A stretch of 45,221 nucleotides of DNA, taken from assembly GCA_017992555.1 (NCBI GenBank), contig JAGOOK010000011.1, forward strand, positions 1 to 45,221, written 5' to 3'. Shown piece by piece: positions 1 to 17,845 of the stretch. The position numbers and the translations under genes are program-made. Positions within the stretch are counted from its first letter, which is position 1. Each line of letters starts with the position of its first letter. Origin of the DNA: Caldisericia bacterium (GTDB lineage: Bacteria > Caldisericota > Caldisericia > JAAYUI01). The notes under the pieces were generated by a model. That model had not been told where the DNA came from, did no database searches, and was given only the letters and a program-made list of their open reading frames with translations.

Positions 1-2
1 CA

Positions 3-260
3 GACACCATTAGGGAACACCGAAGGGGCATCGCAAAAACCTATGAGGAACTCCTCGGAACTAGCAAATTTGACCCTACAAACCCAAAGCATGCCACATA
101 CGCCCAAGCAATCAACCTTGAAAACTACCTCTATGTTGGAATGCTCTCCCTTGGCGTTTCACTCTCGATGATTGGCATCGGACTCTTCATGGTAATGATG
201 GCCATTGCAATGCTTTTGACAGGGCTTGCGCTTTTGCCGGAAAAAGCCAAGGTAGCCTAA
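3..260 (+). CDS. C-terminal end of a membrane protein (5' truncated)
   Basis: An open frame enters from the left edge and ends at TAA 258-260, giving 85 residues. The first half is polar and tyrosine-containing (it includes AKTYEELLGTSKFDPTNP). The second half contains one long hydrophobic stretch, from about residue 45 to 75, rich in Gly, Met, Leu and Ile, which should cross the membrane, followed by a short tail EKAKVA. A perfect terminator follows 13 bases later, so this is the last gene of its transcript. The missing N-terminus prevents a family assignment. Confidence 0.7.
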   Translation, partial: DTIREHRRGIAKTYEELLGTSKFDPTNPKHATYAQAINLENYLYVGMLSLGVSLSMIGIGLFMVMMAIAMLLTGLALLPEKAKVA

Positions 261-272
261 AAACCTCTTTCT

Positions 273-316
273 AACTCGTCTGGCTAGTGTTTCGTCGGTC
301 AGACGAGTTTTTCTTA
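273..316 (+). terminator. Rho-independent terminator
   Basis: A perfect 10-bp stem (AACTCGTCTG at 273-282 pairing with CAGACGAGTT at 300-309) is followed by a T-rich tract (TTTTTCTT). It lies just after the stop of the truncated membrane protein gene and should end that transcript. Confidence 0.85.
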
Positions 317-491
317 TTTGTGACGCAATGACCCGAAGGCCGGCAACCCGGCCGATTTCCCAAGGGCCCGCGGCCCGCAGGGCGATGTTGTCAGGATAAA
401 CAATTTTGTGAGGCTGGTGCGAGGTGGGGACAAGAAAACCGTTTAAGTTTAAATAACATCGGCTCCCTCTTTTTGAATTCTGGTGCATTGT
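317..491. other. Non-coding stretch with a GC-rich palindromic core
   Basis: No gene is supported here. The part from about 331 to 385 is much richer in G+C than its surroundings. It contains a perfect 6-bp hairpin (GGCCGG 338-343, loop CAAC, CCGGCC 348-353) and a run of short GGGCCC/GCGGCCCGC elements at 363-382. A reading frame crosses it on the minus strand, but it has no recognisable domain and runs through the terminator and into the start of the next gene, so it is not called. Confidence 0.4.
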
Positions 492-519
492 TTGCATGCA
501 GATGCTCTTCGGGTATAAT
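492..519 (+). promoter_or_regulatory. Promoter of the 528 gene, leaderless type
   Basis: TTGCAT at 492-497, a 16-nt spacer and a perfect TATAAT at 514-519. The ATG of the next gene begins 8 nt after the -10 box, so the predicted transcription start falls on or within about two bases of the start codon. No Shine-Dalgarno sequence lies between. Confidence 0.6.
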
Positions 520-527
520 GGCAACCT

Positions 528-2261
528 ATGGGAAGGGCAGAAAAAATCGCAAGCTGGACAAAAGAAAACAGGTTTTTTGTTGTTGCCGGTGTTTTGATCG
601 TACTTTGTGTGATAATTGTTATCCCAATCTTTGCCCAATCATTGAATCGATCTGATGGCGATTATTCCACACCTGCGCTTTACCTGTTTTCCACGATAGC
701 CCAGACAATGGGTGCAATCCTGGGGATTGTTTGCGCGGCATTCTTTGCCATTTTCGCAAATATGCGCGCATCAAAAGATGATCCAACGCTTGAGGTATCA
801 AAAAGATTGCTGGTGAGGGACCAAAGTTTCTTGTCTGCTTTGGGTTTTGGCTTGATTACGATTCTGGTTGCCGTTGTTTCACTCATTATTTTATATTTTT
901 CTTCGAACAGCCAAAACCTTTCGGGATTTTTTCTAACAAACGTAGCTTTGATCAATTTTACGCTTGGTCTTTTGTCAATAGCATTTTTGCTGGATTTTGT
1001 AATCAATAAAATTCGTCTTTATATGCACCCAGTTCATCTATTTGATTATTTGTATGAAAAACACAAGGACACTAGAGATATTAATAAAGCAATTGATATT
1101 GCAGAACTTGGATTGTTGTTGGTCGGAATGGCTATAGACAATAAAAATGCTGAAAATAGCTTGATTTATATAAGTAGTGTTATAAATTTAAATATGGATA
1201 ATCATAAAGCTTTTTTAGATAGTGATACTTATGAACATTTGAAAAATAAAATCGAAGAAGATATTTGTCACCTCCAAAATGAAGATCAGGCTTATTATTG
1301 GAGTAATATGATAAAACCAATCACATTGTTTATTCGTAATAACATTATAACATCCTTTATCAATAATAAAGATATCGCTTGTATTTATCTTGATTATGTA
1401 ATAAATATTGGAAAATTCGATTTTATTCTGAAAAAAGCATACATCCATGATAAATATTATTGTTATTATGATAAAATTGTTGAAAATTTAGATGATTTCT
1501 TATGTGAACCTATTAAAGAATTTCCTGAATACAATTCATTAAATAATCTAGATAAGCAAACCTTAATAAATATAATAGATAGAATTTCTGATTATAACTA
1601 TAAGTTTTTATATGATTTATTACATAAATATTATTATCTGTATAATTATACATCTATGATGTGCAATATTAAATTCCCCAATTTAAGAACTGAAGATATA
1701 GAATTTGATAACCCAGTTGCAATAAAATTCAAGCTCCTATTCACTAATTCATTTTATACCTTAATGCTACTCCACTCATTGTTTAGAGTCGAATCGGAAA
1801 TTTATCAAAAAGTATATGTTTATTTTAAAAGGATTACAGATATTATAAATGAACATTTTAGAGAAATAAATAATAATAATTCATTAAAAAGTGTATGCGA
1901 TACAATCTTATATAATATTATATACAGTTACAAAATGGAGACAAGATTTGATTACTCTTATATGCTTCTATTATTACTAAATATATGTGAAACTTTACCC
2001 CCTGGGCTGATTCAAATGTACGAATATGAAGATATTGCTAATAAATTTGATATTACTTTTGCTTATTTTCTTTTTGTGAAAATTGACAAAGAAAATAATG
2101 ATAAAAGCTTCTCATTTTTCATGGATAAACGTCTGAGTGAATTTCTTGGTGGGAGCATGAGTCCTAACATTTATGAAAAGATAAGAGAGAAATACGAGAA
2201 GAACAAACCATTTATAGATCAATATGTTTCTAATATGTACCTGAAGAATATGTTCTATTAG
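528..2261 (+). CDS. AT-rich membrane protein of unknown function, 577 aa
   Basis: The protein begins with four predicted membrane helices, at about residues 17-38, 50-77, 103-127 and 133-158. The remaining 420 residues are soluble, rich in Tyr, Asn, Ile, Lys and Asp, and look largely helical. I do not recognise a family. Composition is uneven: the part coding for the membrane domain resembles neighbouring genes, whereas from about base 1020 the gene becomes extremely AT-rich. That suggests a fusion or transfer of the soluble part. The start ATG 528 has no Shine-Dalgarno sequence but sits 8 nt after a TATAAT box, implying a leaderless message. The gene stops five bases before the 86-bp copy of the EamA gene. 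A membrane-anchored sensor or effector is possible, but nothing in the sequence proves it. Confidence 0.75.
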   Translation: MGRAEKIASWTKENRFFVVAGVLIVLCVIIVIPIFAQSLNRSDGDYSTPALYLFSTIAQTMGAILGIVCAAFFAIFANMRASKDDPTLEVSKRLLVRDQSFLSALGFGLITILVAVVSLIILYFSSNSQNLSGFFLTNVALINFTLGLLSIAFLLDFVINKIRLYMHPVHLFDYLYEKHKDTRDINKAIDIAELGLLLVGMAIDNKNAENSLIYISSVINLNMDNHKAFLDSDTYEHLKNKIEEDICHLQNEDQAYYWSNMIKPITLFIRNNIITSFINNKDIACIYLDYVINIGKFDFILKKAYIHDKYYCYYDKIVENLDDFLCEPIKEFPEYNSLNNLDKQTLINIIDRISDYNYKFLYDLLHKYYYLYNYTSMMCNIKFPNLRTEDIEFDNPVAIKFKLLFTNSFYTLMLLHSLFRVESEIYQKVYVYFKRITDIINEHFREINNNNSLKSVCDTILYNIIYSYKMETRFDYSYMLLLLLNICETLPPGLIQMYEYEDIANKFDITFAYFLFVKIDKENNDKSFSFFMDKRLSEFLGGSMSPNIYEKIREKYEKNKPFIDQYVSNMYLKNMFY

Positions 2262-2266
2262 AAACT

Positions 2267-2352
2267 CCCGTTACCACCACCCCGGCAAAAATCAGCAGTC
2301 CGCCAACAAGCACGTTCAGACCTATCGGGTCGCCAAGGAATGCCCAGGCGAT
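2267..2352 (-). pseudogene. Fragment of EamA permease gene (duplicate 3' part)
   Basis: These 86 bases match 14464-14549, inside the intact EamA gene, with about five differences and in the same orientation. Read on the minus strand they encode the last membrane helix (IAWAFLGDPIGLNVL... then LLIFAGVVVTG), corresponding to residues 260-288 of the intact protein. Beyond the repeat the frame continues into unrelated sequence (VSNRTYSSGTY, then stop, inside the end of the 577-aa gene). There is no 5' part, so it is a dead remnant or one arm of a recombination event. Confidence 0.85.
2267..2352 (+). repeat. 86-bp direct repeat, left copy
   Basis: It is about 94% identical to 14464-14549, in direct orientation and 12,197 bp away. 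The left borders of both copies adjoin unrelated AT-rich sequence; the right border is where the left copy ends and the right copy continues into the intact EamA gene. The pair encloses five exported-protein genes. Confidence 0.85.
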
Positions 2353-2462
2353 AGGTTAATTTTCGTCTTCTTTGGCCACTCTTCAGATTTTATTAGTTTA
2401 TTGAAGATTTGCAGATATTGGATTGGGGGAGATGAAGCAATTTACTGCGTTTATGTTGTAAC

Positions 2463-2540
2463 CTATCTCCCCCACACAGTCACAACAATGGCCTTCTGCT
2501 GGTCAAGAGCAACAGGAGTACCATCAAAAAGAGGTCTGGG
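2463..2540 (+). repeat. 3'-end gene repeat, copy 1
   Basis: The last roughly 75 bases of the 823-aa gene match the last roughly 75 bases of the 904-aa gene (4935-5012) with only about six differences. They encode 24 identical residues. Upstream of this the two genes have diverged strongly, so the terminal segment is either under strong constraint or was recently homogenised. Confidence 0.8.
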
Positions 2541-4934
2541 GATTCCATCATATTCGGATAGTGTAGACTTCTCTATGTCAAGTAGTCCGTTTGATTCGAT
2601 GATGAGCGCAAAGCAGTCATCCCCTTCTTTTTGGTCCTCATACAGGATTGCTGTTTCGGGTTGTGGCCCTGGAAAACTGAATTCTTTTGATTCTCCAGGT
2701 TCAAGTGAAATATCAATCTGATTTCCATTTGCGGCCGCCAGGAGTGGCGGTGAGCCATTTTTGCCCCATCCTGTCAGGTAACCTTTGCCGGAAAATGTTT
2801 TGTCGGAGGTGTTGGAGATCAGGAAAGAAGAGCTGCCCGTCCTTTTTATGGAAAAAGTGGAGCATGGCAAAATCTGGCAATAAACTCCATCTCCAAGTTT
2901 TTTGGGGCTTGTATCCTTAAGTGAAAAAATGTTGCTGGTCTTTTTTTTAAAAGGGCCAAAATATCTTTGAAGATATTTCCCGTCAGGGCTGAAAATCCCT
3001 GTGTCAGTAATTACAACATCACCATAAGAGTAGATTCTTGAAAATTCTTTTTCAAAATACTGGATTTTTGTGTCTTCCCTGGTCTTAAGGTTACGCTTGT
3101 AAAGCCAGTATTTATTGTTGACATCATATTTGGCAAATGTCAGAAACTCGTCCTCAAGTTCAATAAAGGTACCATCCATGTTGTATCTTACCCCGTAGTT
3201 CTCAACTACATGGATTTTTTTCTCGTTTCGCAGAATCAGGTATTCAGAGCCAGGCTCAATGTATGCCTCTCCTTTATATGCAATCTTTTGCACCATCCTT
3301 CCGCTTACAGCATCCAACCATGCCACTTCTATATTACCACTCCTTTTTGCAATAAATACTGATTTCCCGCATGCGTATATTTCTAGGGAATCCTTGTAAT
3401 CTTTGCTAAAATCATTGTCATATCTCCAGAGTTCGTGCCCAGTCATGCTGTTTAGGCACACAAAAGTTTTGTCGCCAAGAAAATATGACGTATTACCATA
3501 CATGAAAGTTTTTTTGGGGTGGAATTCCAGTGACGCGACATTCTCCTGCCCCTGCTCGAGCTTCTCCATGTCAAAATATGAGAACGAAATTTGACCATCT
3601 TTTGGTAATGTGCCTATCAGCATCTTGTTTTTATCATAAAAATTGTAATTTTCACACTTTGTTATTTGTGTCGACCAGGTCACATCCATTTTTGGTCCAA
3701 ATTCCTCAAGGATCGCCTTCTCCGGGTTGTTGATATCGGGTATCACTGCCCAAATGTTGTTATCGTATACAAACGAAAAGAACTTCTTTTTGTCAGGACA
3801 GCTTGCACTTTTTATGATCTTTCTTGTGTTTGTGTCAAACAACATAAGGCCTTCATCTGGCCAGACAAAGAGCCTGTTGCCTTCCAGATCAAAATTCTTT
3901 ATGCCATACCAATCTTCTTCGTCTAGTCTGTATAATACTTCACCAGTATCTGGATCAAAAAGACAATAATTGTATCTGCCTCTCCCATTGTACTCGCATG
4001 TTGCATAGTCTCCGTTGAATTTTAGAATATGACATGTTGTCATGATGGATATTACCTCTTTTGGCAGAACAATGTTGCAAGAGGAAACATATTCTCCATC
4101 AATAGTAATTTTTGTGGTCCTGAAATCATGGCTTAGTGGGGATGGAGAGATGATATAGTAATAGTCGCCGTCCCCGAATATCTGACTATAGGTAACTATC
4201 TTGTCAGTGTTTGAATAATTAAAGAACCTGCTTACATCGGCAATAACTTTGCCAGTTGCCAGAGAAAAAATTACCCTGCCATCGATAAGCCTGTCGTTGT
4301 TTATATCAAAATAGTGACCAGCGTAGAAATCAAAGCTTTGCCCTGTGGTGATATTATACAGATAATTAGCCTTGTACCCTGGCCCCTCCAGGATTATTTC
4401 AATCCAACTTTTTGCAATCCAGATTGCATCTACATAATAGTATTGCTTGTCAAGCTCCAGCTTGCCCAGACTCTGGATTGTGCCTTTTTGCAGCTTGTAG
4501 AAATAAATGGTTTTGGTTTTTATGTTTTCTATTGCATATACGCCATCACCCAGTGAAATCACCTTCTTTTCTAAATCCACGTTCCTTTTGTAAGGGCTAT
4601 CGCCAAGAAAATATTGTGTTTCACCATTGAGCTGAAAGAGATCAATATGCCGATATTCTTGTTCTGATAGGCTATATTCGGTGTTTTGATAATAGAAGTC
4701 CAGAGAAATTCTTAATTCTCCTTCCTTGTCGTACCCTCCACCAAGGGGGTTCCTGTTGGAAGTGAAGTTGATGTCTTTGTCAAAATATTTCCATCTCTCA
4801 TGGCCGTTTTTTGAAATATGGACAGATAGGTCGCATGGAAGGACCGGCTTGGTATTCTCCACAGAGTTCGCTTTGTATGTTTGGTTGCTAGCAACACACG
4901 CCAGGCATGACAGTATTGCAAAAAATTTCTTCAT
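2463..4934 (-). CDS. Exported beta-propeller-like protein, 823 aa
   Basis: The N-terminus (MKKFFAILSCLACVAS) is a typical signal peptide. The body, about residues 30-690, is a series of beta-rich blades with repeated phrases such as 'G..Y.I.N..T...YFY' and 'LNSMTGHELWRYDND', the latter a PQQ-like blade. From about residue 700 comes an Ig-like module ending in a tail (PRPLFDGTPVALDQQ through VWGR) that is identical to the tail of the upstream gene product. The start codon directly abuts the upstream stop (TAGATG). Its ribosome-binding site GGGGGAGG lies inside the last codons of that gene, so the two are translationally coupled. Probably a surface or periplasmic binding or scaffold protein; the ligand is unknown. 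Confidence 0.85.
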   Translation of the reverse strand: MKKFFAILSCLACVASNQTYKANSVENTKPVLPCDLSVHISKNGHERWKYFDKDINFTSNRNPLGGGYDKEGELRISLDFYYQNTEYSLSEQEYRHIDLFQLNGETQYFLGDSPYKRNVDLEKKVISLGDGVYAIENIKTKTIYFYKLQKGTIQSLGKLELDKQYYYVDAIWIAKSWIEIILEGPGYKANYLYNITTGQSFDFYAGHYFDINNDRLIDGRVIFSLATGKVIADVSRFFNYSNTDKIVTYSQIFGDGDYYYIISPSPLSHDFRTTKITIDGEYVSSCNIVLPKEVISIMTTCHILKFNGDYATCEYNGRGRYNYCLFDPDTGEVLYRLDEEDWYGIKNFDLEGNRLFVWPDEGLMLFDTNTRKIIKSASCPDKKKFFSFVYDNNIWAVIPDINNPEKAILEEFGPKMDVTWSTQITKCENYNFYDKNKMLIGTLPKDGQISFSYFDMEKLEQGQENVASLEFHPKKTFMYGNTSYFLGDKTFVCLNSMTGHELWRYDNDFSKDYKDSLEIYACGKSVFIAKRSGNIEVAWLDAVSGRMVQKIAYKGEAYIEPGSEYLILRNEKKIHVVENYGVRYNMDGTFIELEDEFLTFAKYDVNNKYWLYKRNLKTREDTKIQYFEKEFSRIYSYGDVVITDTGIFSPDGKYLQRYFGPFKKKTSNIFSLKDTSPKKLGDGVYCQILPCSTFSIKRTGSSSFLISNTSDKTFSGKGYLTGWGKNGSPPLLAAANGNQIDISLEPGESKEFSFPGPQPETAILYEDQKEGDDCFALIIESNGLLDIEKSTLSEYDGIPRPLFDGTPVALDQQKAIVVTVWGR

Positions 4935-5012
4935 CTACCTCCCCCACACAGTCACAACAATGGCCTTTTGCTGATCAAGAGCAACAGGAGTCCCATCAAA
5001 AAGAGGCCTTGG
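4935..5012 (+). repeat. 3'-end gene repeat, copy 2
   Basis: Partner of 2463-2540. On the minus strand this copy also supplies the ribosome-binding site (GGGGGAGG) of the 823-aa gene, which starts immediately after its stop codon. Confidence 0.8.
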
Positions 5013-7649
5013 GTCTTTATCATACTCAGACAAAACAGACTTCTCCCTATCCATCAGCCCATTAGACTCCACAACAAGAGCAAAATACTTCCCTTCACCC
5101 TTCTGATTATGCTCCATCAAAGGTGGTTCAGGAAGCTTAAAGCTAATCTCCTGTGACATCCCAGGAAGCAGAGGCCCTAACTTATGCCTTGGTTCATTTA
5201 GCTTCGCAAACACAGGTGCCTTTCCATCATCCCCCCAAGAAACCAGATACGCCTCTCCCTTTAGCACAAGGTCTCTTTCATCCTCCCTTGTATTCCTGAA
5301 CTCAAAGCTAACCTCATCCACCTCACCTGCTCCACCCTTGCCATCACCTCCACCCTTCCCGGTCCTTTTGACCGAGAATGACGGGCATGGGGAGAGCTTA
5401 CCGATTAAACCGCTTGGGATTTCGGCGATAGTGGAAGGAACGTATGCGGTTGCAGAAGGCTGGATATATTTTTCAGTGATACCAAGGATTGGGTAAAAAG
5501 CTTGCCCATGCCTTGGGAGAGCAAGCCAGGACCCAAGGCCGCTCTGGACAAGATCTCCTCCAAGCGTGCAAAGTTTGCCACCAAAAAGATGGTAATCATC
5601 AAATTTTGCTTGTCGCTGATACACTCCTTCAGGGAAGAGCATGTATTTTCTATTTTTTGTTTTCACATCAAACAATAGTAATCTGTTGTCATCCTCCCCG
5701 CTGTAATTATGGCAATAAAGGTACAACAAGCCGTTCTCGAAGGCAATAAAACTGCTGTCCTTGATAACATCTGGTTGTGACCCATTAAAGTAATTGACAT
5801 AAGTGTCAGAAGAATTGTTCAATACAATCATGCTGGAATCAAAGCAATCTACTTTTATTCTTAGTCTGTTTGCTTTTTCTTGTGCACTCACATGAGCCTC
5901 GTAAAGACGTGTCATTTTTTGTACATCGATACAGGTGATGTAGGCCAGCAAACCTTTTTGTGTTCCATAGCGGACAATTGTCAAAACGTTGTTTTCCAGG
6001 AGCAGTTCCGTTCTTGTTGTTTCCCAGCCGGCAGTTTTTATGCCCTCTATGCTTGCTAACAATTTCCCGTCATTCAAATCAAAACATTCTATGCTGCTAA
6101 ATCCTTTGCAAACATATATTTTCCCATCATAAACCTTGAATTGCCCAGTATTTTCCATAAAAGATTCTGTATTGATAGTCAATTCTTTATAGTAATCGCC
6201 TTTGGACCCTATTTTATAGCTTCTCTTTTTTATTTCTGTGTCAAATATCCCTTTTTCGTTCTTTTTTGAGACAAGACTAATTCCCACTATGTCACCATTA
6301 TCAATTACATACTGATCCATTGTGCCCACAATTGTGTTGGTGAATGTCTCCGGCGAGTAATTGCCATCCAATTTGTAGAAACATGATTGTCCATCGTCTG
6401 TCCTGTAGCCAAAGAATATTTTGCCCCCAGCATCCAGAAATATTGACTCTTTTGGGAAATGTATCTCTTTCACAAGCTTGATAGGGTCTGTGCTCCATAT
6501 TTTTATCAGATTCGAGATTGTTGCCACACGAGTTGGATCTGAAACTGCAACTGCATAGTTGTTTACGGTGAAAACATTCTCGCCAACTTGGAATTCGTGT
6601 TTTATTTCAAGCGTATCAATGTCGCGTATTGAATAGCGCAATATGTGGGATTCCTCCGTTCTGCCAATTATCAGAAGGTTTTTCACAAAAGTGTCATTGA
6701 TTGTCACTGGAACCTTGAAATCAAACTCTTTTCTAAACAGCAGTTTGCCATCAAAAGAAACTCTTGTAAGGGATGGTTTTGGGTTTTTTACCTGGGTTGG
6801 ATACACCGGGTTGAATATATAGTCGACATAGCCGTCCTTTATCTTGGTTATGTTTGCTTTGATTCCAAGCCTGGAAAGATTGGCTGTGACCTTCCTCTCC
6901 TTGATGCTGTAAATTTCTTGTGTTGAGGCCATATATTCGTCATTAAATGCGACAGGAGGGCCATATAAGGGGGAATATATCACCTTCATGGTTTTGACGT
7001 CTACAAGCCCTGATAGCTTGCCAACTTCACCCCAAAAGATGTCTTTTGAAATACTGGTTATGGAACTAGTTGCAGGTGTTTTCAAACTTGAGACTGTATT
7101 GCCAGTGTCCATGTCAATGAAGCCAAGATTGATCTGGCCATCACTCAATGGTTCTTGCTGGATGGCATATCCCAATTTTGGGCTATAGCCACACCATTCT
7201 CCAATCAGGAACGATTTGTCTTGTAGCTTTATTATCTGTGGATTGCCAGAAAAGAATGTGTCCCAGGAAAAATCTCTGTGCAATACATTGTAAGGGTATG
7301 GGATACTTGATGGTTTTTTGACTGGCAAATTGATGATTTGTGTCTGCCCATAATATGGATCGTAATATTCCATCATTGCCTGATTCAGTGTTTCTTTTAT
7401 ATTTGTAACTTCACAAAGCTGGCAGTCCATCACCAGGCCGGATGGATATTTGTCCTTACCAATGATAGAAAAGTTGCCACCAAGAGCATTGCAGTCTGAT
7501 GGCAAGAATGGCGGCAGGATTTTTTGGTTTGGTTCATCCAGGTAGCCAGCCGTTGCATTTTGGCTACCAAACGAGAATGGCGCAAGAAATATCACCAGTG
7601 CAAGCAGTATTGATGTTGTTTTTGGTGAAAAAAGGACCAATTTACGCAT
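4935..7649 (-). CDS. Exported beta-propeller-like protein, 904 aa
   Basis: Residues 1-35 are a signal peptide (MRKLVLFSP... ILLALVIFLAPFSFG). The body, about residues 40-745, is beta-rich with propeller-like repeats, for example 'YDGKIYVCKGFSSIECFDL' and 'DLNDGKLLASI'. The C-terminal 150 residues form a module shared with the next gene: a 'SFSVKRTG' entry, a glycine-rich insert here (GKGGGDGKGGAG), a beta-sandwich with 'KGEAYLVSWGDDGKAPVF' and 'LLPGMSQEISF', then the invariant tail ending VWGR. A good Shine-Dalgarno (GGAGAGGGG) precedes the ATG. First gene of a two-gene unit with the 823-aa gene, from which it arose or which arose from it by duplication. Function unknown. Confidence 0.85.
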   Translation of the reverse strand: MRKLVLFSPKTTSILLALVIFLAPFSFGSQNATAGYLDEPNQKILPPFLPSDCNALGGNFSIIGKDKYPSGLVMDCQLCEVTNIKETLNQAMMEYYDPYYGQTQIINLPVKKPSSIPYPYNVLHRDFSWDTFFSGNPQIIKLQDKSFLIGEWCGYSPKLGYAIQQEPLSDGQINLGFIDMDTGNTVSSLKTPATSSITSISKDIFWGEVGKLSGLVDVKTMKVIYSPLYGPPVAFNDEYMASTQEIYSIKERKVTANLSRLGIKANITKIKDGYVDYIFNPVYPTQVKNPKPSLTRVSFDGKLLFRKEFDFKVPVTINDTFVKNLLIIGRTEESHILRYSIRDIDTLEIKHEFQVGENVFTVNNYAVAVSDPTRVATISNLIKIWSTDPIKLVKEIHFPKESIFLDAGGKIFFGYRTDDGQSCFYKLDGNYSPETFTNTIVGTMDQYVIDNGDIVGISLVSKKNEKGIFDTEIKKRSYKIGSKGDYYKELTINTESFMENTGQFKVYDGKIYVCKGFSSIECFDLNDGKLLASIEGIKTAGWETTRTELLLENNVLTIVRYGTQKGLLAYITCIDVQKMTRLYEAHVSAQEKANRLRIKVDCFDSSMIVLNNSSDTYVNYFNGSQPDVIKDSSFIAFENGLLYLYCHNYSGEDDNRLLLFDVKTKNRKYMLFPEGVYQRQAKFDDYHLFGGKLCTLGGDLVQSGLGSWLALPRHGQAFYPILGITEKYIQPSATAYVPSTIAEIPSGLIGKLSPCPSFSVKRTGKGGGDGKGGAGEVDEVSFEFRNTREDERDLVLKGEAYLVSWGDDGKAPVFAKLNEPRHKLGPLLPGMSQEISFKLPEPPLMEHNQKGEGKYFALVVESNGLMDREKSVLSEYDKDPRPLFDGTPVALDQQKAIVVTVWGR

Positions 7650-7855
7650 TTCCCCTCTCCATTTTCAAAATGACCAAAAGCCTGTTTGCCTTTGGCACAA
7701 CTCATACCATTGTGATTTTTGCTTCCTATCACTAATACCCTTCGGGCTTTTTTCTGGTTTAAGTAGAGACAATCTCTAGCAATTATATCGGACAATTAAT
7801 GATTATTATTCATCGCATTCTTCCGGGAATATTTTAGTAGCCCACTCCTTTTATG

Positions 7856-7894
7856 AAATGTGAATTTATAAAATAATAAGCTAAATTCACATTT
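7856..7894. promoter_or_regulatory. Perfect 13-bp inverted repeat, possible operator
   Basis: AAATGTGAATTTA (7856-7868) and TAAATTCACATTT (7882-7894) are perfect reverse complements separated by 13 AT-rich bases. Neither side has a T-tract suggesting a terminator. The location between two divergent genes and the TGTGA...TCACA half-sites favour a regulator-binding site, though the spacing is much wider than a CRP or FNR site, so the regulator is unknown. A cruciform or RNA hairpin is an alternative. Confidence 0.45.
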
Positions 7895-7967
7895 AGTTCA
7901 TTATTGATTTACTTTAGTCGTTTATTTTTTTTCTTAATATGTTAATTTTGCTGTGGCATAATAAAAA

Positions 7968-7995
7968 TGAAAACCATAATCCGAAGAAGTATAAT
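7968..7995 (+). promoter_or_regulatory. Possible promoter of the 8053 gene
   Basis: A perfect TATAAT at 7990-7995 with only a weak -35 (TGAAAA at 7968-7973, spacer 16). It would give a leader of about 50 nt carrying the GGGAGGAG ribosome-binding site. Confidence 0.3.
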
Positions 7996-8052
7996 TTTAT
8001 GGGCATTATTTTTTTGTGGGGACATTGATGAATGGATGGGAGGAGAAAAATT

Positions 8053-9423
8053 ATGAAGCTGGAATATGTGCTGGCGTATTTTTTGGTTGTGGCTATTATG
8101 GTGAGTTGCGGAGTAAAGGAAGATTCTTCCAAACCTGAAACCATGCAAGAAACACAAAAAACACAACCTGAAAAGGAACATGAGAAAGGAACCAATACCC
8201 AAGAACTCCCATATGAAGAGATTCCATTCATATCTTCTTATGGAGAAAAAATTGAGCCTAAAAAATCAGAAGAGATCAAGTCTAAAGACAAATACTGGAA
8301 GTTCGAGAGAAAATATGAACCCAAATCTAATGAGAAGAAAACCTCACTTTACAATGCTCCAGGTTTTGAAGGAAAGGGAGAATTGGCGAAAAAATGGACA
8401 ACTACTCTCGAAGAGCTAAAGGCTTGGCATATAGGCGCATATCCCCAATCATGGCAATTTGACCGCTCAATCATAGACCCAAAAACAGGAAACATCCTTC
8501 AACATAATGCTCCCCCCGCTGGTGAAACCGATGGCAAACGAGTGTATGGAATTGATTACAATAGGGGCTTTTTGCCTTTGGATTGCTGGGAGCTTGATAA
8601 CTATAAGCATTTATGGGATGGTCCCTGGGCTCTTGCTGGTGAACATCATATATCTACCATCAAAGGTGCTCTGTTGCATGCCAGTCGGCCAGGGCCAGCT
8701 TTCATCTACAGATTAGATCCGGAAACTGGTCAAACACTCTGGCAGCTAAAAAGCTCTGGTGATTCCGGATATGCCAAGTGGTGTTCTTCTGATAACTATT
8801 TCATTGCCTCAATCAACTTCACAGAAATAGATTCAGACTCGAAGATGATTAAATCCTATGTTTTCAGAATAGATCCAATCACGGGGAAAAATGACAGCAT
8901 TGAACTGTCACGCAAGGGTGTCCAAGGAATGGCTTGCATCGGCAACAACCTTTGGATCCAAACAGTAGATGCCCACCTTTTGTGTGTCGATTTGACAACC
9001 ATGAAGGAGACAAAGGACATAAAAATCAATCATAGCTCATCTAATCTAGATAAATCATTAATTTCTTGGATTGAAAACTTGACCTATCAAACTGGGAATA
9101 AGTTATTGTTGGTAATCTATTCAAATTCAGATAGAATTCCATCCGAGTACATCTTATTTGATACCCTCAGTGGTCGCCAAACAGTTCTCAGCAAGCCTGC
9201 TCCAGAAACATCCAACTACATCCCAAAAGTTAGCATAATAAATGGCTCTCTGATATATCAGGATTCCCCCACCCAACTCCGTGGTGTAGACCCTGACACA
9301 CTGGAAACCCTATGGTGGATAGACAAGAAAAACCTTGGAGAGAATGCCCATGTTGCCTGGCTTGACTGGCGTGGAGTGTGCGTCATCTCTGACACCAAAA
9401 TAATGTGTTTCGGGCCAAAATGA
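8053..9423 (+). CDS. Beta-propeller (PQQ-like) lipoprotein, 456 aa
   Basis: The start chosen is ATG 8053, preceded by GGGAGGAG at 8038-8045. An in-frame ATG at 8032 lies upstream of that site and is unlikely. The N-terminus is a lipoprotein signal with a lipobox-like MVSC (Cys19). A charged, Lys/Glu-rich linker of about 100 residues follows. From about residue 100 come propeller blades with PQQ-type phrases such as 'YRLDPETGQTLWQLKSSG', 'FRIDPITGKND', 'LRGVDPDTLETLWWIDKKN' and a last blade ending 'VISDTKIMCFGPK'. The design resembles BamB-like scaffold lipoproteins but the linker is longer. It probably sits on the outer face of a membrane; its partner is unknown. Confidence 0.8.
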   Translation: MKLEYVLAYFLVVAIMVSCGVKEDSSKPETMQETQKTQPEKEHEKGTNTQELPYEEIPFISSYGEKIEPKKSEEIKSKDKYWKFERKYEPKSNEKKTSLYNAPGFEGKGELAKKWTTTLEELKAWHIGAYPQSWQFDRSIIDPKTGNILQHNAPPAGETDGKRVYGIDYNRGFLPLDCWELDNYKHLWDGPWALAGEHHISTIKGALLHASRPGPAFIYRLDPETGQTLWQLKSSGDSGYAKWCSSDNYFIASINFTEIDSDSKMIKSYVFRIDPITGKNDSIELSRKGVQGMACIGNNLWIQTVDAHLLCVDLTTMKETKDIKINHSSSNLDKSLISWIENLTYQTGNKLLLVIYSNSDRIPSEYILFDTLSGRQTVLSKPAPETSNYIPKVSIINGSLIYQDSPTQLRGVDPDTLETLWWIDKKNLGENAHVAWLDWRGVCVISDTKIMCFGPK

Positions 9424-9569
9424 TTAATAATCCCTGTTTTCGTACTTTTCCAATCTCAATATGAATTTATCCCAAGCTGAACAATAGACACGTCATAAAA
9501 TTCAGAAATCCAAACCGAACCCTAGACACTCCCTAAACGTTAGGTAAATGGAAGGAGAGGCAATCGGGT

Positions 9570-9598
9570 TTGGATAAAAGTATCAGAGCAAATATGCT
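9570..9598 (+). promoter_or_regulatory. Possible promoter of the 9662 gene
   Basis: TTGGAT at 9570-9575, a 17-nt spacer and TATGCT at 9593-9598. A short palindrome (CCTAA-ACG-TTAGG at 9532-9544) lies about 25 bases upstream of the -35 and could be an operator. Confidence 0.4.
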
Positions 9599-9661
9599 AG
9601 AATGAAGAATAGCATTGAAATCAAATAAAATCATTTGCATAAATTGAAGCAAGGGGAAAAT

Positions 9662-12523
9662 ATGATAGCAAAGCGGGTCATGCTCACAGTGGTTCTAATA
9701 ACAGTATTTGTTCTGGGTGGTCCGAGCCAGGTTGTGAAAAACATGGAACCGGCCTGTGACTGGCCCTGCTACAGAGGCAACCCCCAGAGAACAGGCGCAT
9801 CAGAATGTGGTCCCAGGAGCAGTGAGTTGGAGATTGCCTGGACACATGACAATGGAGAGTGGGGATACAATGACCCTTCTGTCTCAGGTGGAAGGGTCAT
9901 AACCCCATTCAAACATGGGGAAGAACGTGGCCTGGTTTGCCTTGATGCAAAAAACGGCTCGGAGATATGGAAGAAGCAGTTCACTGGCAAAGGTGACATC
10001 GAGACGCCACTGATTGTTGGAGACAAACTGTTTTGCTCGGTATATGACAGGTTCGTGTGTATGAATGCCACAAATGGTGATTTGCTGTGGGGGTACGAAG
10101 ACAGCTTTTGCATGCCCCCTTTATACCTCAACGGTTCTGTCTTTGGCTGCAGCAGCTCCAAGGATCTGTGCTCCATTGATGCGCAGAATGGAACATTGAA
10201 CTGGAGCAAATCACTTGACGGAGGCTGTTGTGTATCGGCACCATCCGTATTCAACAACCAAATATACATCTCTGATGGCTTTGGAGTATTACATTGTCTT
10301 GAGATAGAAAAGGGCAACACAATATGGACAAAGAAGTTCGGTGAATTGGGATTGACAACCCCAGCCTTCTATGATGGCAAGCTATTTGTTTGTGGTGCGA
10401 CAGACCTGTACTGTCTTGACCCTGCAACAGGCAACCAGATATGGAATGTGGTAGCAGACACTGACATCTTTGATCCCACATTCTCTGATGGCAAGATGGT
10501 GTTTAGTTGTTACGATGGACACCTCCACTGTCTGGAGGCAAGATCTGGTAAAGAGCTCTGGATAAATGACACTATCACAAAATACCCAATCACCATAGAA
10601 GAATTTACACCCACGATCTCCAATGGAATGATATTCATCGGGACCACTGCAAGAGACCTGGCAATTGTTGATCTGGCAAGCGGAAAAGAGATAAAAAGAA
10701 TTAGAATAGACAGTGGTGCAGCAAATGAGGTTGTAGTTGCTTGCGGCAATCTCTACGTTAATACCTACTCAAAGACTATCTGTCTGAGACAAAAACCTGT
10801 TATTTCAAGTATAACCATCGAGAAGCCCGACCACACCTTAAAGGTTGGTGAACGGTACCAGTTCAGGGCAAAGGCGTATGATGAGGATTCGGAAGAGATT
10901 GTTAACCCATACCTCACTTGGTCTGTGGAACCAGAGGATGCAGGCATCATGTCCAGTGACGGCTTCTTCTTGTGCAGAAAACAAGGAACATGCAAGATCA
11001 TTGTCACATCACAGGATAAGGCAGCATCTATAGAGATATCTATCGACAAGGGAGTGGACATTGGGTTGCTCTCCGATTCTGGTTGTGACTGGCAAATGGA
11101 CAGAGGAGACCTGCAAAGAACCGGATCATCGAATGGTGGACCAAAAACAGCAAAGCTGGGATTGCTGTGGAAAAAAGACAAGCATAGGATATTTACCATC
11201 TGCTCAGGGAGAATATTGGGTGATGGCCCAGGTCCTGGGTTGATTTGTTTTGACGAAGACTTGAACATAATTTGGAAATATATCACTGAAAAGGGTGTTG
11301 TAGATGCTGGGGTAATTGATAAAAGAGTTATTTTTTCATCACCAGGTGAAGGAGTAATCTACTGCTGCGATTTTGAAAATGGAAGTCTAATTTGGAAGGC
11401 AAATAAAATTGTTTGGGAATTTAATATTTCATCTGACAAAGTATTCCTTAAGGTTTCCCCGTCCATTTTTTCTGATCGATACACAATTGAATGTATAAGC
11501 TTATCAGATGGCAAAACACTGTGGACCTCCAGAGAGTATGGAGATGGTTACTATCTTGCATATGCCAACAAGAAGGTATATTTGAGTTCTCTGTACTCAA
11601 TAATCTGTCTTGACAGCTCGGATGGCAGCCAAAGCTGGGAATACAAGACAGACACTGTCATTGAAGGTTCTCTAGTTGTTTCAGATGGAAAGGTATATTG
11701 CACAAATCAAAAGGGCCATGTGTACTGCCTTGATGCTGACAGTGGGAAGAAAATCTGGTATGCAAGCTTTGAGGAAGATAACGATGGAGTTGTCAACATC
11801 ATTTCATGCTCGCCTGCAATATATGAAAATAAGCTATATTGTTGTGCACAATATGGCTCAGTGTTCTGCTTTGATGCAAAGACAGGCGCCACACTCTGGG
11901 AGTTTGAAACTGATGGCAAACTTGAATATATGAACCCTGTCGCATCAAATGGGATGGTTTATTTTGGATCCTATAGCTATCTTTACTGTGTTTCTGCAAA
12001 TGAGGGCAAGCTCCTCTGGCAATACAGGCTTGATGATGCGATTGGTACACTTATACCTGCACTGGGAAAGCTGTATCTTTGGGTACATGATAAAGATGTG
12101 TTGCTATGTTTCGGTGAAAAACAGGTTACTGAAACGAAACTCTCGTTTACACTTGGTTCCAGCATATACGATGTGAATGGTCAAAAGATGTCCATGGATA
12201 CTGAACCTGTAAATATCGGAGGAAGAATATTTCTACCGGCAAGGTATGCTGTGGAACCTCTTGGAGGTACAATCAGTTATGACAGCTCAAAGAAAATGGT
12301 TGTCATCTCTTTTGGAACAATCGAGATCCAGATGACCATTGGCAACAATATTGCCAAAATCAATGGTTCGGATGTCAAGATTGATTTGGAAAACCCTGGC
12401 ATCGTCCCTGTTATTCGAAATGGCAGGACTATGTTGCCCTTGAGGTTTATTGGTGAGTCACTTGGGTGCAGTGTCACCTGGGACGATGCCACAAAAACAG
12501 CGACGCTGATTAAGGCTAGCTGA
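9662..12523 (+). CDS. Secreted double PQQ-propeller protein with Big and stalk domains, 953 aa
   Basis: ATG 9662 is chosen because AAGGGG lies 5 nt upstream; the in-frame ATG at 9635 has no such site. After a signal peptide come two PQQ-type beta-propellers. The first begins at about residue 32 (CDWPCYRGNPQRTGAS), the second at about residue 475 (CDWQMDRGDLQRTGSS). Blades carry the usual 'CLD...G...W' signature, for example 'VYCLDADSGKKIWYASFE'. Between the propellers, at about residues 382-465, lies a bacterial Ig-like (Big) domain ('KVGERYQFRAKAYDEDSEEI'). From about residue 826 to the end there are two halves of the copper amine oxidase N-like stalk domain ('GRIFLPARYAVEPLGGTISYD', 'GRTMLPLRFIGESLGCSVTWD'). 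Probably a cell-surface protein held by the stalk domain. Confidence 0.9.
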   Translation: MIAKRVMLTVVLITVFVLGGPSQVVKNMEPACDWPCYRGNPQRTGASECGPRSSELEIAWTHDNGEWGYNDPSVSGGRVITPFKHGEERGLVCLDAKNGSEIWKKQFTGKGDIETPLIVGDKLFCSVYDRFVCMNATNGDLLWGYEDSFCMPPLYLNGSVFGCSSSKDLCSIDAQNGTLNWSKSLDGGCCVSAPSVFNNQIYISDGFGVLHCLEIEKGNTIWTKKFGELGLTTPAFYDGKLFVCGATDLYCLDPATGNQIWNVVADTDIFDPTFSDGKMVFSCYDGHLHCLEARSGKELWINDTITKYPITIEEFTPTISNGMIFIGTTARDLAIVDLASGKEIKRIRIDSGAANEVVVACGNLYVNTYSKTICLRQKPVISSITIEKPDHTLKVGERYQFRAKAYDEDSEEIVNPYLTWSVEPEDAGIMSSDGFFLCRKQGTCKIIVTSQDKAASIEISIDKGVDIGLLSDSGCDWQMDRGDLQRTGSSNGGPKTAKLGLLWKKDKHRIFTICSGRILGDGPGPGLICFDEDLNIIWKYITEKGVVDAGVIDKRVIFSSPGEGVIYCCDFENGSLIWKANKIVWEFNISSDKVFLKVSPSIFSDRYTIECISLSDGKTLWTSREYGDGYYLAYANKKVYLSSLYSIICLDSSDGSQSWEYKTDTVIEGSLVVSDGKVYCTNQKGHVYCLDADSGKKIWYASFEEDNDGVVNIISCSPAIYENKLYCCAQYGSVFCFDAKTGATLWEFETDGKLEYMNPVASNGMVYFGSYSYLYCVSANEGKLLWQYRLDDAIGTLIPALGKLYLWVHDKDVLLCFGEKQVTETKLSFTLGSSIYDVNGQKMSMDTEPVNIGGRIFLPARYAVEPLGGTISYDSSKKMVVISFGTIEIQMTIGNNIAKINGSDVKIDLENPGIVPVIRNGRTMLPLRFIGESLGCSVTWDDATKTATLIKAS

Positions 12524-12677
12524 CTTTTTGGCTGCTTTTCAAAAGGACTCAAAAGAATGCTGGCCGGCATACCCTCAAAGAGGGCAGGGGAGTGGCAAAA
12601 GTATGGTATTTACAAGATAATTTCAAACTGTGACCGAATACCTAGTGATAATTAATTAATTTATCAATTAATCCAAT

Positions 12678-14285
12678 TTATTGATTACCAAACGATGGGA
12701 TTTGAGTTTTAGCAACATTTTGAACAATACCCTCTTTTATATCAAGAATAAGATTCATCTTCAATTCGGAACATTCGATATTAAGGAAGCGGCCATCTTC
12801 GCTTAGTTTATATGAAGATATGAAAAACAAAGGATTTTTCAATATACTGTATGAGGGTTGCTTGTGCCCGTATTTATAAAGTCTTATGCCGAAACCTTTA
12901 TATTTGTCTGAAAAAGGTATAGATAATAACCCGTATTTTGTTGGCAGTATCGTTCTGTTAGATAATGTAGAATTATAATCCGTTAAGCCAGGATTTATCT
13001 CAAATGTAAAACTATCTATATTATGTTTCATAAGGTTGATGATCCTTACCTTTTGGACAACGTTGGTCAGACTTTCCTGATCATATATAGCACCAACAAC
13101 ATACAAATTATTATCATTAACAATCGTGTTTTTCGAGGTAACAGTTTCAAAGCTGTTTATCATCTGGCAGTCCTTATCAAATATGCTGGTATTTGATAAG
13201 GATACTATTAAAAATAAATCTTTATATATTTTAATGTATGGATTCATAATTGATAGAACATAGCTGTTTGTTTTGGATTTAGTATTGTAAATATAAGTCT
13301 CGCATTTCAATGTTGACCACAAAACAACATTATCATCTAAAATTGCCTTTACAGGTAATTGTAATATGCTGTTGTAATCGCAAGGTAAATCGATCTCATT
13401 CTCCTCGAGTTTATCGCAATTATTTGCATATTTCATTACATATATCTTTGTATTGTAGTTGTCATTTTTATTATTTTGTGTGCTATACCACACATACATA
13501 TTATTGCGAAAAACGTTGCTATATGCATAGCTTGGAGTTGTAATCATAACATCTTTCAAATCTTTGAAAGAAAATATTTTCATAAAGAACTTGCCATCAG
13601 TGCTTTTTTGTGGTTGAGGTGGTCTCAGTACAGCAAAATCATCCAGTCGAAAATTTAAATACCAGATCCCTTCCATTGTTTTTATGGGGTCGCCGGTTAA
13701 TGGATCAACGACTGATGTAGTGTTTTCATTATAGTCACATATCAGAAAATACCTGTCAAAATAAAACAAGCATATATCGGATTTACTCCACATTTTTTTA
13801 TTGTCTAGATAAATTTCGAATATTCTATCATTCGAATTATCGGAAAACTTGGTAACTACTGAAACATATTTATCGATCCCAGTGAAAAAAACTAAGGAAC
13901 TTTTTGATTCGTAATGCTTTACATCAAGATTGGCGTCTATAACAACAGTATCATATTTATCTTTGTTTTTGGTAATATAATAAATTCTATTAAACAAGCG
14001 ATCATATGTTACATCCCCAGTATTAGTAAAACTGATATTTAGTGTTAAAGCGGGAATGTTAGACATCACATCTCTAAATTCAATAATGTCAGAATATCTG
14101 TATATGAGGTATCCCCCACCATCATTAGAATTAGATGGAAGATATGCACATGGTGGGTTATTGAATAATCCTGATTTTTCGGCGCATGTAATGATTTCAT
14201 CATCATAATAACATCTTGCAGTTTGTATATTTGGCAGAAACATACAGAAACACAAGAGGATTATGTATATCTTAACTGGTTTCAT
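12678..14285 (-). CDS. AT-rich exported propeller-like protein, 535 aa
   Basis: The start is ATG 14285, preceded by GAGGAGGTAG. A longer frame beginning at 14312 is rejected because that codon lies inside the predicted -10 box. Residues 1-24 form a signal peptide (MKPVKIYIILLCFCMFLPNI). The rest is beta-rich with loosely repeated segments such as 'TYDRLFNRIYYITKNKDKYD' and 'VVDPLTGDPIKTMEGIWYLN', consistent with a degenerate propeller. I recognise no named domain. Composition is much more AT-rich than the flanking propeller genes and resembles the 3' part of the 577-aa gene at the other end of this block, suggesting a separate origin. Confidence 0.75.
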   Translation of the reverse strand: MKPVKIYIILLCFCMFLPNIQTARCYYDDEIITCAEKSGLFNNPPCAYLPSNSNDGGGYLIYRYSDIIEFRDVMSNIPALTLNISFTNTGDVTYDRLFNRIYYITKNKDKYDTVVIDANLDVKHYESKSSLVFFTGIDKYVSVVTKFSDNSNDRIFEIYLDNKKMWSKSDICLFYFDRYFLICDYNENTTSVVDPLTGDPIKTMEGIWYLNFRLDDFAVLRPPQPQKSTDGKFFMKIFSFKDLKDVMITTPSYAYSNVFRNNMYVWYSTQNNKNDNYNTKIYVMKYANNCDKLEENEIDLPCDYNSILQLPVKAILDDNVVLWSTLKCETYIYNTKSKTNSYVLSIMNPYIKIYKDLFLIVSLSNTSIFDKDCQMINSFETVTSKNTIVNDNNLYVVGAIYDQESLTNVVQKVRIINLMKHNIDSFTFEINPGLTDYNSTLSNRTILPTKYGLLSIPFSDKYKGFGIRLYKYGHKQPSYSILKNPLFFISSYKLSEDGRFLNIECSELKMNLILDIKEGIVQNVAKTQIPSFGNQ

Positions 14286-14311
14286 GCTACCTCCTCGATA
14301 TTTGCACCTCA

Positions 14312-14340
14312 TTCATAATATGCCCTCTTAGTTTTGACAA
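14312..14340 (-). promoter_or_regulatory. Promoter of the 535-aa protein gene
   Basis: On the minus strand TTGTCA (14340-14335) and TATGAA (14317-14312) are 17 nt apart. The predicted start of transcription lies about 20 nt upstream of the chosen ATG, leaving room for its GAGGAGG site. Confidence 0.5.
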
Positions 14341-14405
14341 CAATATTCTATTCATAAAAATAGTTAATCGAGTATAGAAAGTATAGTTAATATGTAAAAT
14401 ATCAG

Positions 14406-15326
14406 CTAATAAGATATGTGTTGGTTAACAAATATTGAGTTGCTTTGAGAATTACATTTTAACCCCGTCACCGTCACCCCGGCAAAAATCAACAATCCGC
14501 CAACAAGCACGTTCAGACCTATCGGGTCGCCAAGGAATGCCCAGGCGATGATCGATGCCCCGACTGGCTCAAAGAGGTTTGTGGTTGTCGTGATGATCGG
14601 CGTCAGGTATTTGACACCCATGTTTAGCGCGGTGTGGCCAATCACCTGTGGGAAAAGCGCCATGCCGGCGATAGAGAGCCAGGACGCTCCGGAATAGCCC
14701 CAGAGCTGTTCACCAGTCAATAAAGCGCCTGCAAGCAGGAGCAGGCTTGCGACTGGATACGAGACAGAGACTGTCTGCAGGAGAGGCGCCCTTTCCTGTG
14801 CTATCTTTGATGTGATCAGGTAGCACGAGCCGAACAGTGCGCCAAGCAGTGACAGGACGACGCCAAGCGTTGTTCCTTCCATCTTTGTTCCCCAGAGCGC
14901 AATCACTGCCGCACCGCCTATTGCCAGAAAAATGCCGAGGATTGCAAAGGGGGTTGGTTTTTTCCTCCAGACCAGGTATTCGAGCATTGCTATGAATATC
15001 GGCGCTGTGGTAACAAGTACTGCTGTTGCCGATACCGAGATGTAGCGAAAAGAGCTTATCCATACGGCAAAGTGCATTGCCAGAAAAAGCCCGGACAGCA
15101 CTGACCAGAACAGGGCTTTTTTGTCATGGAACATTTTCCACGGTGCGCCAAAAGGGACCATGATTATTGAGGCAATCAGGAGCCTCCAGAAAGCCATTGA
15201 GAATGGACCAACATCTGCTGATGCAATTTTGACAAGGGGCGCCGCAGATGACATCGAAAGCACACCAAGTGCCAGGAAGGCGTAGTATTTGCCCTTGCCG
15301 TCGGCTCCAGTCTCTTTGTGCGTCAT
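14406..15326 (-). CDS. EamA/DMT-superfamily permease, 306 aa
   Basis: A ten-helix drug/metabolite transporter made of two EamA repeats. The first repeat includes 'LGVLSMSSAAPLVKIASAD' and 'PFSMAFWRLLIASIIMVPFG'; the second includes 'LSLLGALFGSCYLITSKIAQ' and ends with the helix 'GLNVLVGGLLIFAGVTVTG'. Such proteins exchange small metabolites across the inner membrane; the substrate cannot be read from sequence. The last 18 residues (LKCNSQSNSIFVNQHISY) lie beyond the 86-bp repeat, are encoded by AT-rich DNA and look like a replaced tail. No Shine-Dalgarno sequence precedes the ATG; a TACACT hexamer ends 8 nt before it, but no good -35 is seen, so the start is moderately certain. It begins 47 bp after the 780-aa gene and may also be read through from it. 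Confidence 0.85.
   Translation of the reverse strand: MTHKETGADGKGKYYAFLALGVLSMSSAAPLVKIASADVGPFSMAFWRLLIASIIMVPFGAPWKMFHDKKALFWSVLSGLFLAMHFAVWISSFRYISVSATAVLVTTAPIFIAMLEYLVWRKKPTPFAILGIFLAIGGAAVIALWGTKMEGTTLGVVLSLLGALFGSCYLITSKIAQERAPLLQTVSVSYPVASLLLLAGALLTGEQLWGYSGASWLSIAGMALFPQVIGHTALNMGVKYLTPIITTTTNLFEPVGASIIAWAFLGDPIGLNVLVGGLLIFAGVTVTGLKCNSQSNSIFVNQHISY
14464..14549 (+). repeat. 86-bp direct repeat, right copy (within EamA gene)
   Basis: Parent copy of 2267-2352. It covers codons 260-288 of the intact permease. Its left edge marks the point where the gene's coding sequence changes to an AT-rich tail. Confidence 0.85.
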
Positions 15327-15373
15327 TGGGGCAAAGTGTATTTGGGTTTTCCAGTTTTGTGGTTAAAGGTGTG

Positions 15374-17716: not shown

Positions 17717-17722
17717 GGAGAC

Positions 17723-17751
17723 ATTTTAGCTTTTTTGTCTTTTTTTGGCAA
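17723..17751 (-). promoter_or_regulatory. Promoter of the PEP/pyruvate-binding gene, leaderless type
   Basis: On the minus strand TTGCCA (17751-17746), spacer 17, TAAAAT (17728-17723). The ATG follows after 6 nt. Confidence 0.6.
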
Positions 17752-17794
17752 TGATTTGAGAAATGCTGGATATTACCATTTTTGCTGAAAAATC

Positions 17795-17833
17795 TGAAAG
17801 AAATTGCTGTGGGCTGTTAAGCCCACAGCAATT
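17795..17833 (-). terminator. Terminator of the marR-ABC operon
   Basis: A perfect 14-bp stem (17802-17815 with 17820-17833) closed by a 4-base loop. On the minus strand it is followed by TCTTTC and, a little later, TTTTT. It starts 13 bases after the stop codon of the second ABC gene. Confidence 0.85.
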
Positions 17834-17845
17834 CTAAGACAGAAC

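Follow-up and report, generated by a model that had tools for sequence, protein, structure and literature searches.

Two apparently stacked occupants at a probable integrase-less gene-turnover hotspot in a Caldisericales genus

Hotspots that lack integrases and recombine at the core genes beside them have been documented (Oliveira et al. 2017, PMC5635113), as have integrations in which one end is joined by homology and the other illegitimately (PMC3240628), and decayed islands that keep their end repeats, with tandem accretion at the 3′ end of a gene (PMC5704250). The locus described here, from a scarcely studied phylum, resembles the integrase-less hotspots of horizontal gene transfer in that the same flanks enclose differing content in each relative, with no integrase, defence-type cargo in one genome and possibly a recombination signal in a flanking gene (PMC5635113). 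It differs from them in that two occupants appear stacked and the remnant of a gene end marks their join, and the comparison covers four genomes only. Homology-facilitated illegitimate recombination (PMC3240628) would share with this locus homology at one end only and a one-sided scar, although it was described for small DNA introduced in the laboratory, whereas here it would account for a natural 12-kb insertion. We regard the event as an insertion stacked beside an earlier occupant of a hotspot. Events of this sort are known, and this one is unusually clear: it left a distinct scar of gene acquisition at an integrase-less site, and the empty site is kept in a sister species.

The window is the whole 45,221-nucleotide contig C25 of a 1.5-Mb Caldisericales metagenome-assembled genome, about 70% complete (G000). 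It was compared with three genomes of the same genus, G001 (about 74% complete), G002 and G003. The features of the locus are listed below by window position and strand.

1..259, + strand: small membrane-protein gene, 3′ part; left flank of the putative hotspot in all four congeners; 99.6% identical to G001 and 88-94% to G002/G003 over 250-438 bp
318..433, + strand: Lcl_C (DUF1566) gene, orphan 3′ end; whole gene kept in G001 and G003, truncated at the identical base in G002
528..2261, + strand: 577-aa membrane-anchored protein, putative resident occupant; N-terminus about 94% identical in DNA over 221 bp to the G001 homologue (587 aa), body diverged
2267..2352, − strand: left repeat, an orphan stretch of 86 bp left from the EamA 3′ end; its reading, GVVVTG, recurs in G001 and G003
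2353..2462, no strand: left junction with a spacer of 110 bp that is unique; past the repeat nothing matches it in its own genome or in the array loci compared
2463..4934, − strand: 823-aa exported protein of the array family; only its 3′ end matches elsewhere at the DNA level
4935..7649, − strand: 904-aa exported protein of the array family; full-length orthologues at other loci in G002 (92-94%) and G003 (85-86%)
7650..7763, − strand: conserved leader upstream of the 904-aa gene; about 89%, common to other array members
8032..9423, + strand: 463-aa putative lipoprotein; paralogue on contig C9 of its own genome, tandem array on contig C8 of G002
9635..12523, + strand: 962-aa exported PQQ-type beta-propeller with a C-terminal copper-amine-oxidase-N-like domain (PF13360 3.1e-58, PF07833 4.7e-30)
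12678..14312, − strand: 544-aa exported protein; no relative in 60 other genomes
14464..14549, − strand: right repeat, within the EamA gene; reads GVTVTG
14406..15326, − strand: EamA permease gene, intact, 306 aa (PF00892 E 5.6e-37); right flank of the putative hotspot

In G001 the gene order is small membrane gene, Lcl_C gene, 587-aa gene, EamA and a PPDK-like gene; the 587-aa gene stops exactly at the start of EamA homology, and the single EamA gene is uninterrupted, with no second fragment. An initial annotation, made from the window alone, had proposed a check for relatives with one uninterrupted EamA gene beside the 577-aa gene and without the block, and G001, with its homologue of 587 aa, is such a genome. 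The block is absent from the site in G001, G002 and G003, none of which carries it in place without a repeat. Identity between the 577-aa and 587-aa genes is lost abruptly after their first 221 bp; since these are 94% identical, we take the resident arrangement to be common to G000 and G001. Given the empty arrangement in G001 and the absence of the block from G002 and G003, the block is an addition that came to separate the 577-aa gene from EamA, and the simplest assumption places this event in the G000 lineage. Membrane-anchored proteins of this type, which match no known family (window 528-2261; L032 1697-3460; L077 755-2686), have a conserved N-terminal part and a fast-diverging C-terminal part.

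The other two relatives carry further contents at the same place. The G002 occupant (L033 9577-11044) is a RhuM-like and Fic/Doc pair matching the candidate phage-defence families PDC-M59A/PDC-M59B, and that of G003 is an unrelated 211-aa protein for which no known family was matched, giving four different contents in four congeners between the small membrane gene or Lcl_C 3′ end and EamA. No EamA fragment or repeat was found beside the occupants of G001-G003, and a Pfam scan of ORFs in the interval of G000 and in these occupants returned no mobility domains. A search for RNA families in positions 1-16000 of the window found none. The EamA-PPDK neighbourhood extends to the next genus (G004) with other genes beyond EamA, at a distance too great to inform the junction.

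The right flank of G000 is 94.9% identical to that of G001 over 12.3 kb and 90.7% identical to that of G002. The left flank is incongruent with this: G000 and G002 share the Lcl_C truncation, of which the last 110 or so bases remain in both (in G002, L033 reverse complement 8823-8935) behind a terminator common to the two, yet G001 is nearer overall. On the right, the EamA gene and the sequence just beyond it (14596-15642) share 50 informative sites with G002 and 52 with G001, whereas 16243-17891 shares 33 with G002 and 127 with G001 (Fisher p 3e-6, for four genomes and with both intervals picked after inspection of the profile). Such a mosaic pattern is as expected of a recombining flank gene, although the signal could reflect recombination in G001 or G002 instead of G000. 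Both flanks of the hotspot look recombined. The contigs of G000 (window 1) and G001 (L032 1) have an identical starting base within one gene, which makes a branch in the assembly graph immediately to the left of the hotspot probable.

The direct repeats were found where the initial annotation had placed them, at 2267-2352 and 14464-14549, and are identical at 81 of 86 positions (94%, E about 2e-32). As it had also read them, the right copy is part of an intact permease gene (PF00892, 5.6e-37) and the left is an orphan. A search of the 1.5 Mb assembly, about 70% complete, returned these two copies only, and we reject a widespread dispersed element, the possibility against which the annotation had set its reading. 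Its further claim, that the last 18 codons of the permease lie outside the repeat and look replaced, stands in part: the tail is without a counterpart in the relatives, but only over about 13 codons (14406-14445), since the similarity of the right copy to G001 continues for 18 bp past the repeat, to 14446. The C-terminal tail of EamA is different in each of the four genomes and is drawn from the adjoining sequence; a changing tail is therefore the rule at this site.

All five differences between the repeat copies lie in the outer 32 bp, and the inner 54 bp are identical, with one private base that both copies share and that is absent from G001, G002 and G003. The chance that five random differences would all fall within the outer 32 of 86 positions is 0.006. 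Because the EamA end varies most between species in this same outer stretch, the clustering is only suggestive. At columns 28 and 31 the left copy matches G001 where the right copy does not.

We consider it probable that this genus has an integrase-less hotspot of gene turnover between the Lcl_C 3′ end and that of EamA. Two alternative occupants would have become stacked there when homologous recombination anchored in EamA joined one side and an illegitimate join closed the other. The right end of the block is continuous with EamA and its left end breaks inside EamA, at 2352; a single event would produce this structure if the right side recombined by a homologous crossover within EamA and the left side was joined without homology. 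The sequences themselves show the empty arrangement in the relatives, the varying occupants, the scar and the mosaic pattern of EamA; in what follows we infer the donor, the sequence of steps and the enzymology. The G000 ancestor would have held a single occupant, the 577-aa gene, abutting EamA as in G001 today, and the incoming DNA would have come from a relative with another occupant, the 12-kb block, beside its own EamA gene. On the right side, homologous recombination within EamA would have kept the gene intact while giving it the incoming 3′ end and tail; on the left, a non-homologous join at 2352/2353 would have fallen 86 bp inside the resident EamA copy. The outcome would be two tandem occupants, with the last 86 bp of the resident EamA gene trapped between them. 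The left copy would accordingly represent the resident EamA end beside the resident gene, and the outer part of the right copy would have arrived with the block. Which copy is resident is a judgement, as the two differ by five bases only and the relatives vary in the same stretch. The donor state, with the block alone beside EamA, was not found in the genomes examined. DNA uptake is possible via ComEC, present in all four genomes. ComEC is found also in species without known natural competence.

The initial annotation had allowed for site-specific integration, recombination or tandem duplication as the source of this geometry. An insertion is supported by the empty site in G001, and simple tandem duplication is rejected because the block is not a copy of its flanks, with which it has only the 86 bp in common; of what is left, EamA-anchored recombination fits best as the inferred route, and integration is without positive evidence beyond the geometry. 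Site-specific integration at the EamA 3′ end is the main rival, albeit an unlikely one. The block would then be an integrase-less remnant (a CIME-like island), or have been integrated by an enzyme acting in trans, with the repeats as attL and attR and the right one restoring the gene. An intact restored gene on one side, a 3′ fragment on the other and an identical inner part are the classical arrangement, and decayed elements that keep attL and attR without an integrase are documented, as is tandem accretion at a gene end (PMC5704250). The locus is like these CIMEs in being bordered by direct repeats of a 3′ gene end, in lacking an integrase and in lying in tandem with another occupant; it is unlike them in that att function and a site-specific recombinase are only putative here, and in that other occupants of the site are without repeats. 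The geometry produced by the one-sided event could equally result from a circular intermediate that recombined via EamA, or from a site-specific integrase.

Against site-specific integration, no integrase was found in the block, as the initial annotation had noted and the absence of mobility domains from the scanned block ORFs bears out. The one tyrosine recombinase found in G000, a 438-aa frame, has a counterpart of the same length in both G001 and G002, and no serine recombinase was found in G000 or G001; the missing integrase is weak evidence, since these genomes are about 70% and 74% complete. The occupants of the same interval in G001-G003 lack an EamA fragment, and several genes of the block are, by paralogy, members of chromosomal families in this genus and not genes of an element. 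The EamA 3′ end had no match in viral contigs or phages, and the 904-aa protein had none in plasmids; a viral or plasmid origin of the block is unsupported.

Less probable again is an intragenomic rearrangement: the genome's own exported-protein arrays would have supplied the inserted block, and a break in EamA would have been repaired with copying of the EamA fragment. Contig C9 carries a paralogue of the 463-aa gene (77% identical), the end of contig C55 points to an unassembled array of the family, and the 904-aa gene lies at different loci in G002 and G003. The paralogue of the 463-aa gene is, however, too divergent to be a recent source, no second 904-aa, 823-aa or 544-aa gene was found in G000, and the complete EamA end directly after the right end of the block fits import with an EamA flank better. 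A contig falsely joining two strains or loci via the EamA repeat is very improbable: the assembly is metagenomic, array genes break contigs elsewhere and the contig shares its first base with that of G001, but the left copy ends inside EamA and runs into unique sequence, where a join through shared k-mers would need a pre-existing fragment, the five differences in the outer 32 bp distinguish the copies, and the block is spanned without gaps.

The block itself (about 2353-14445) had been described in the initial annotation as holding only exported propeller-type genes. Its five long ORFs do have signal- or lipoprotein-like starts, as read by eye, but a clear propeller is present in the 962-aa protein alone (PQQ_2 3e-58), and a propeller in the other four is at best weakly supported. 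Structure models of the 904-aa and 544-aa proteins (mean pLDDT 29 and 32) were too poor and were not used.

The less ordinary part of the case is a family of exported proteins whose genes have constant 3′ ends and occupy different positions in different species. The 904-aa gene, with about 113 bp upstream of it, has orthologues elsewhere in G002 and G003, and its locus is different in each of the three species; in G002 it adjoins what is presumably a HydE-like gene and in G003 presumably one for S-adenosylmethionine synthetase, names that we read from the translations. Tandem arrays of its family are present in all three relatives, G001-G003, and the break at the end of contig C55 points to an unassembled one in G000. 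Family members have in common a C-terminal part of about 150 residues, in which nearly all of the invariant columns lie. Their 3′ DNA is mostly 82-97% identical, with lower values for the 823-aa gene and one G001 gene, and their bodies mostly share about 30% protein identity. The 823-aa gene is highly identical to the family over its last 130 bp or so only, and the 150-bp 3′ end of the 463-aa gene is 90-94% identical to those of copies with bodies about 30% identical. A tree of the array 3′ ends is largely unresolved, with one well-supported branch, and genomes cluster in it beyond most shuffles (2/200 as low), which suggests homogenisation of these ends within genomes.

A tentative reading, to which we give only limited credence, is that a cassette system of exported-protein genes operates across the genus, with the block as one of its landing sites. 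The genes would recombine at their ends, which are a shared leader (about 110 bp) and a 3′ end that hardly varies (about 130-460 bp); whole genes could then move between arrays or to new sites and exposed bodies could be swapped, giving surface variation, in this instance in an uncultured anaerobic bacterium. Cassette-type surface-protein families such as Borrelia vls (PMC11499132) likewise comprise arrays of surface-protein genes or cassettes that differ between copies. In contrast to that system, the genes considered here are complete, with signal sequences, leaders of their own, a conserved 3′ end, bodies about 30% identical and no known expression site. A large exported-protein family with constant 3′ ends, highly divergent bodies and a position that shifts between species offers a testable case of surface diversification.

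A 9-bp inverted match links the left junction (GATAGGTTA, 2350-2358) with the end of the 823-aa gene (2459-2467), and is treated as chance because no other array end continues like the junction. At the array loci (window 2463-7763; L066, L067, L068, L069, L070, L071), the stop codon directly adjoins the next start in several copies. Relatives of the 463-aa gene adjoin RHS-type genes in G003 and, by sequence, in G002. These lipoprotein-like relatives (L074 9034-18584; L075 477-7372; L073 1014-2294) form arrays behind RHS-repeat genes and displaced RHS-like ends, and their 150-bp 3′ end is nearly identical.
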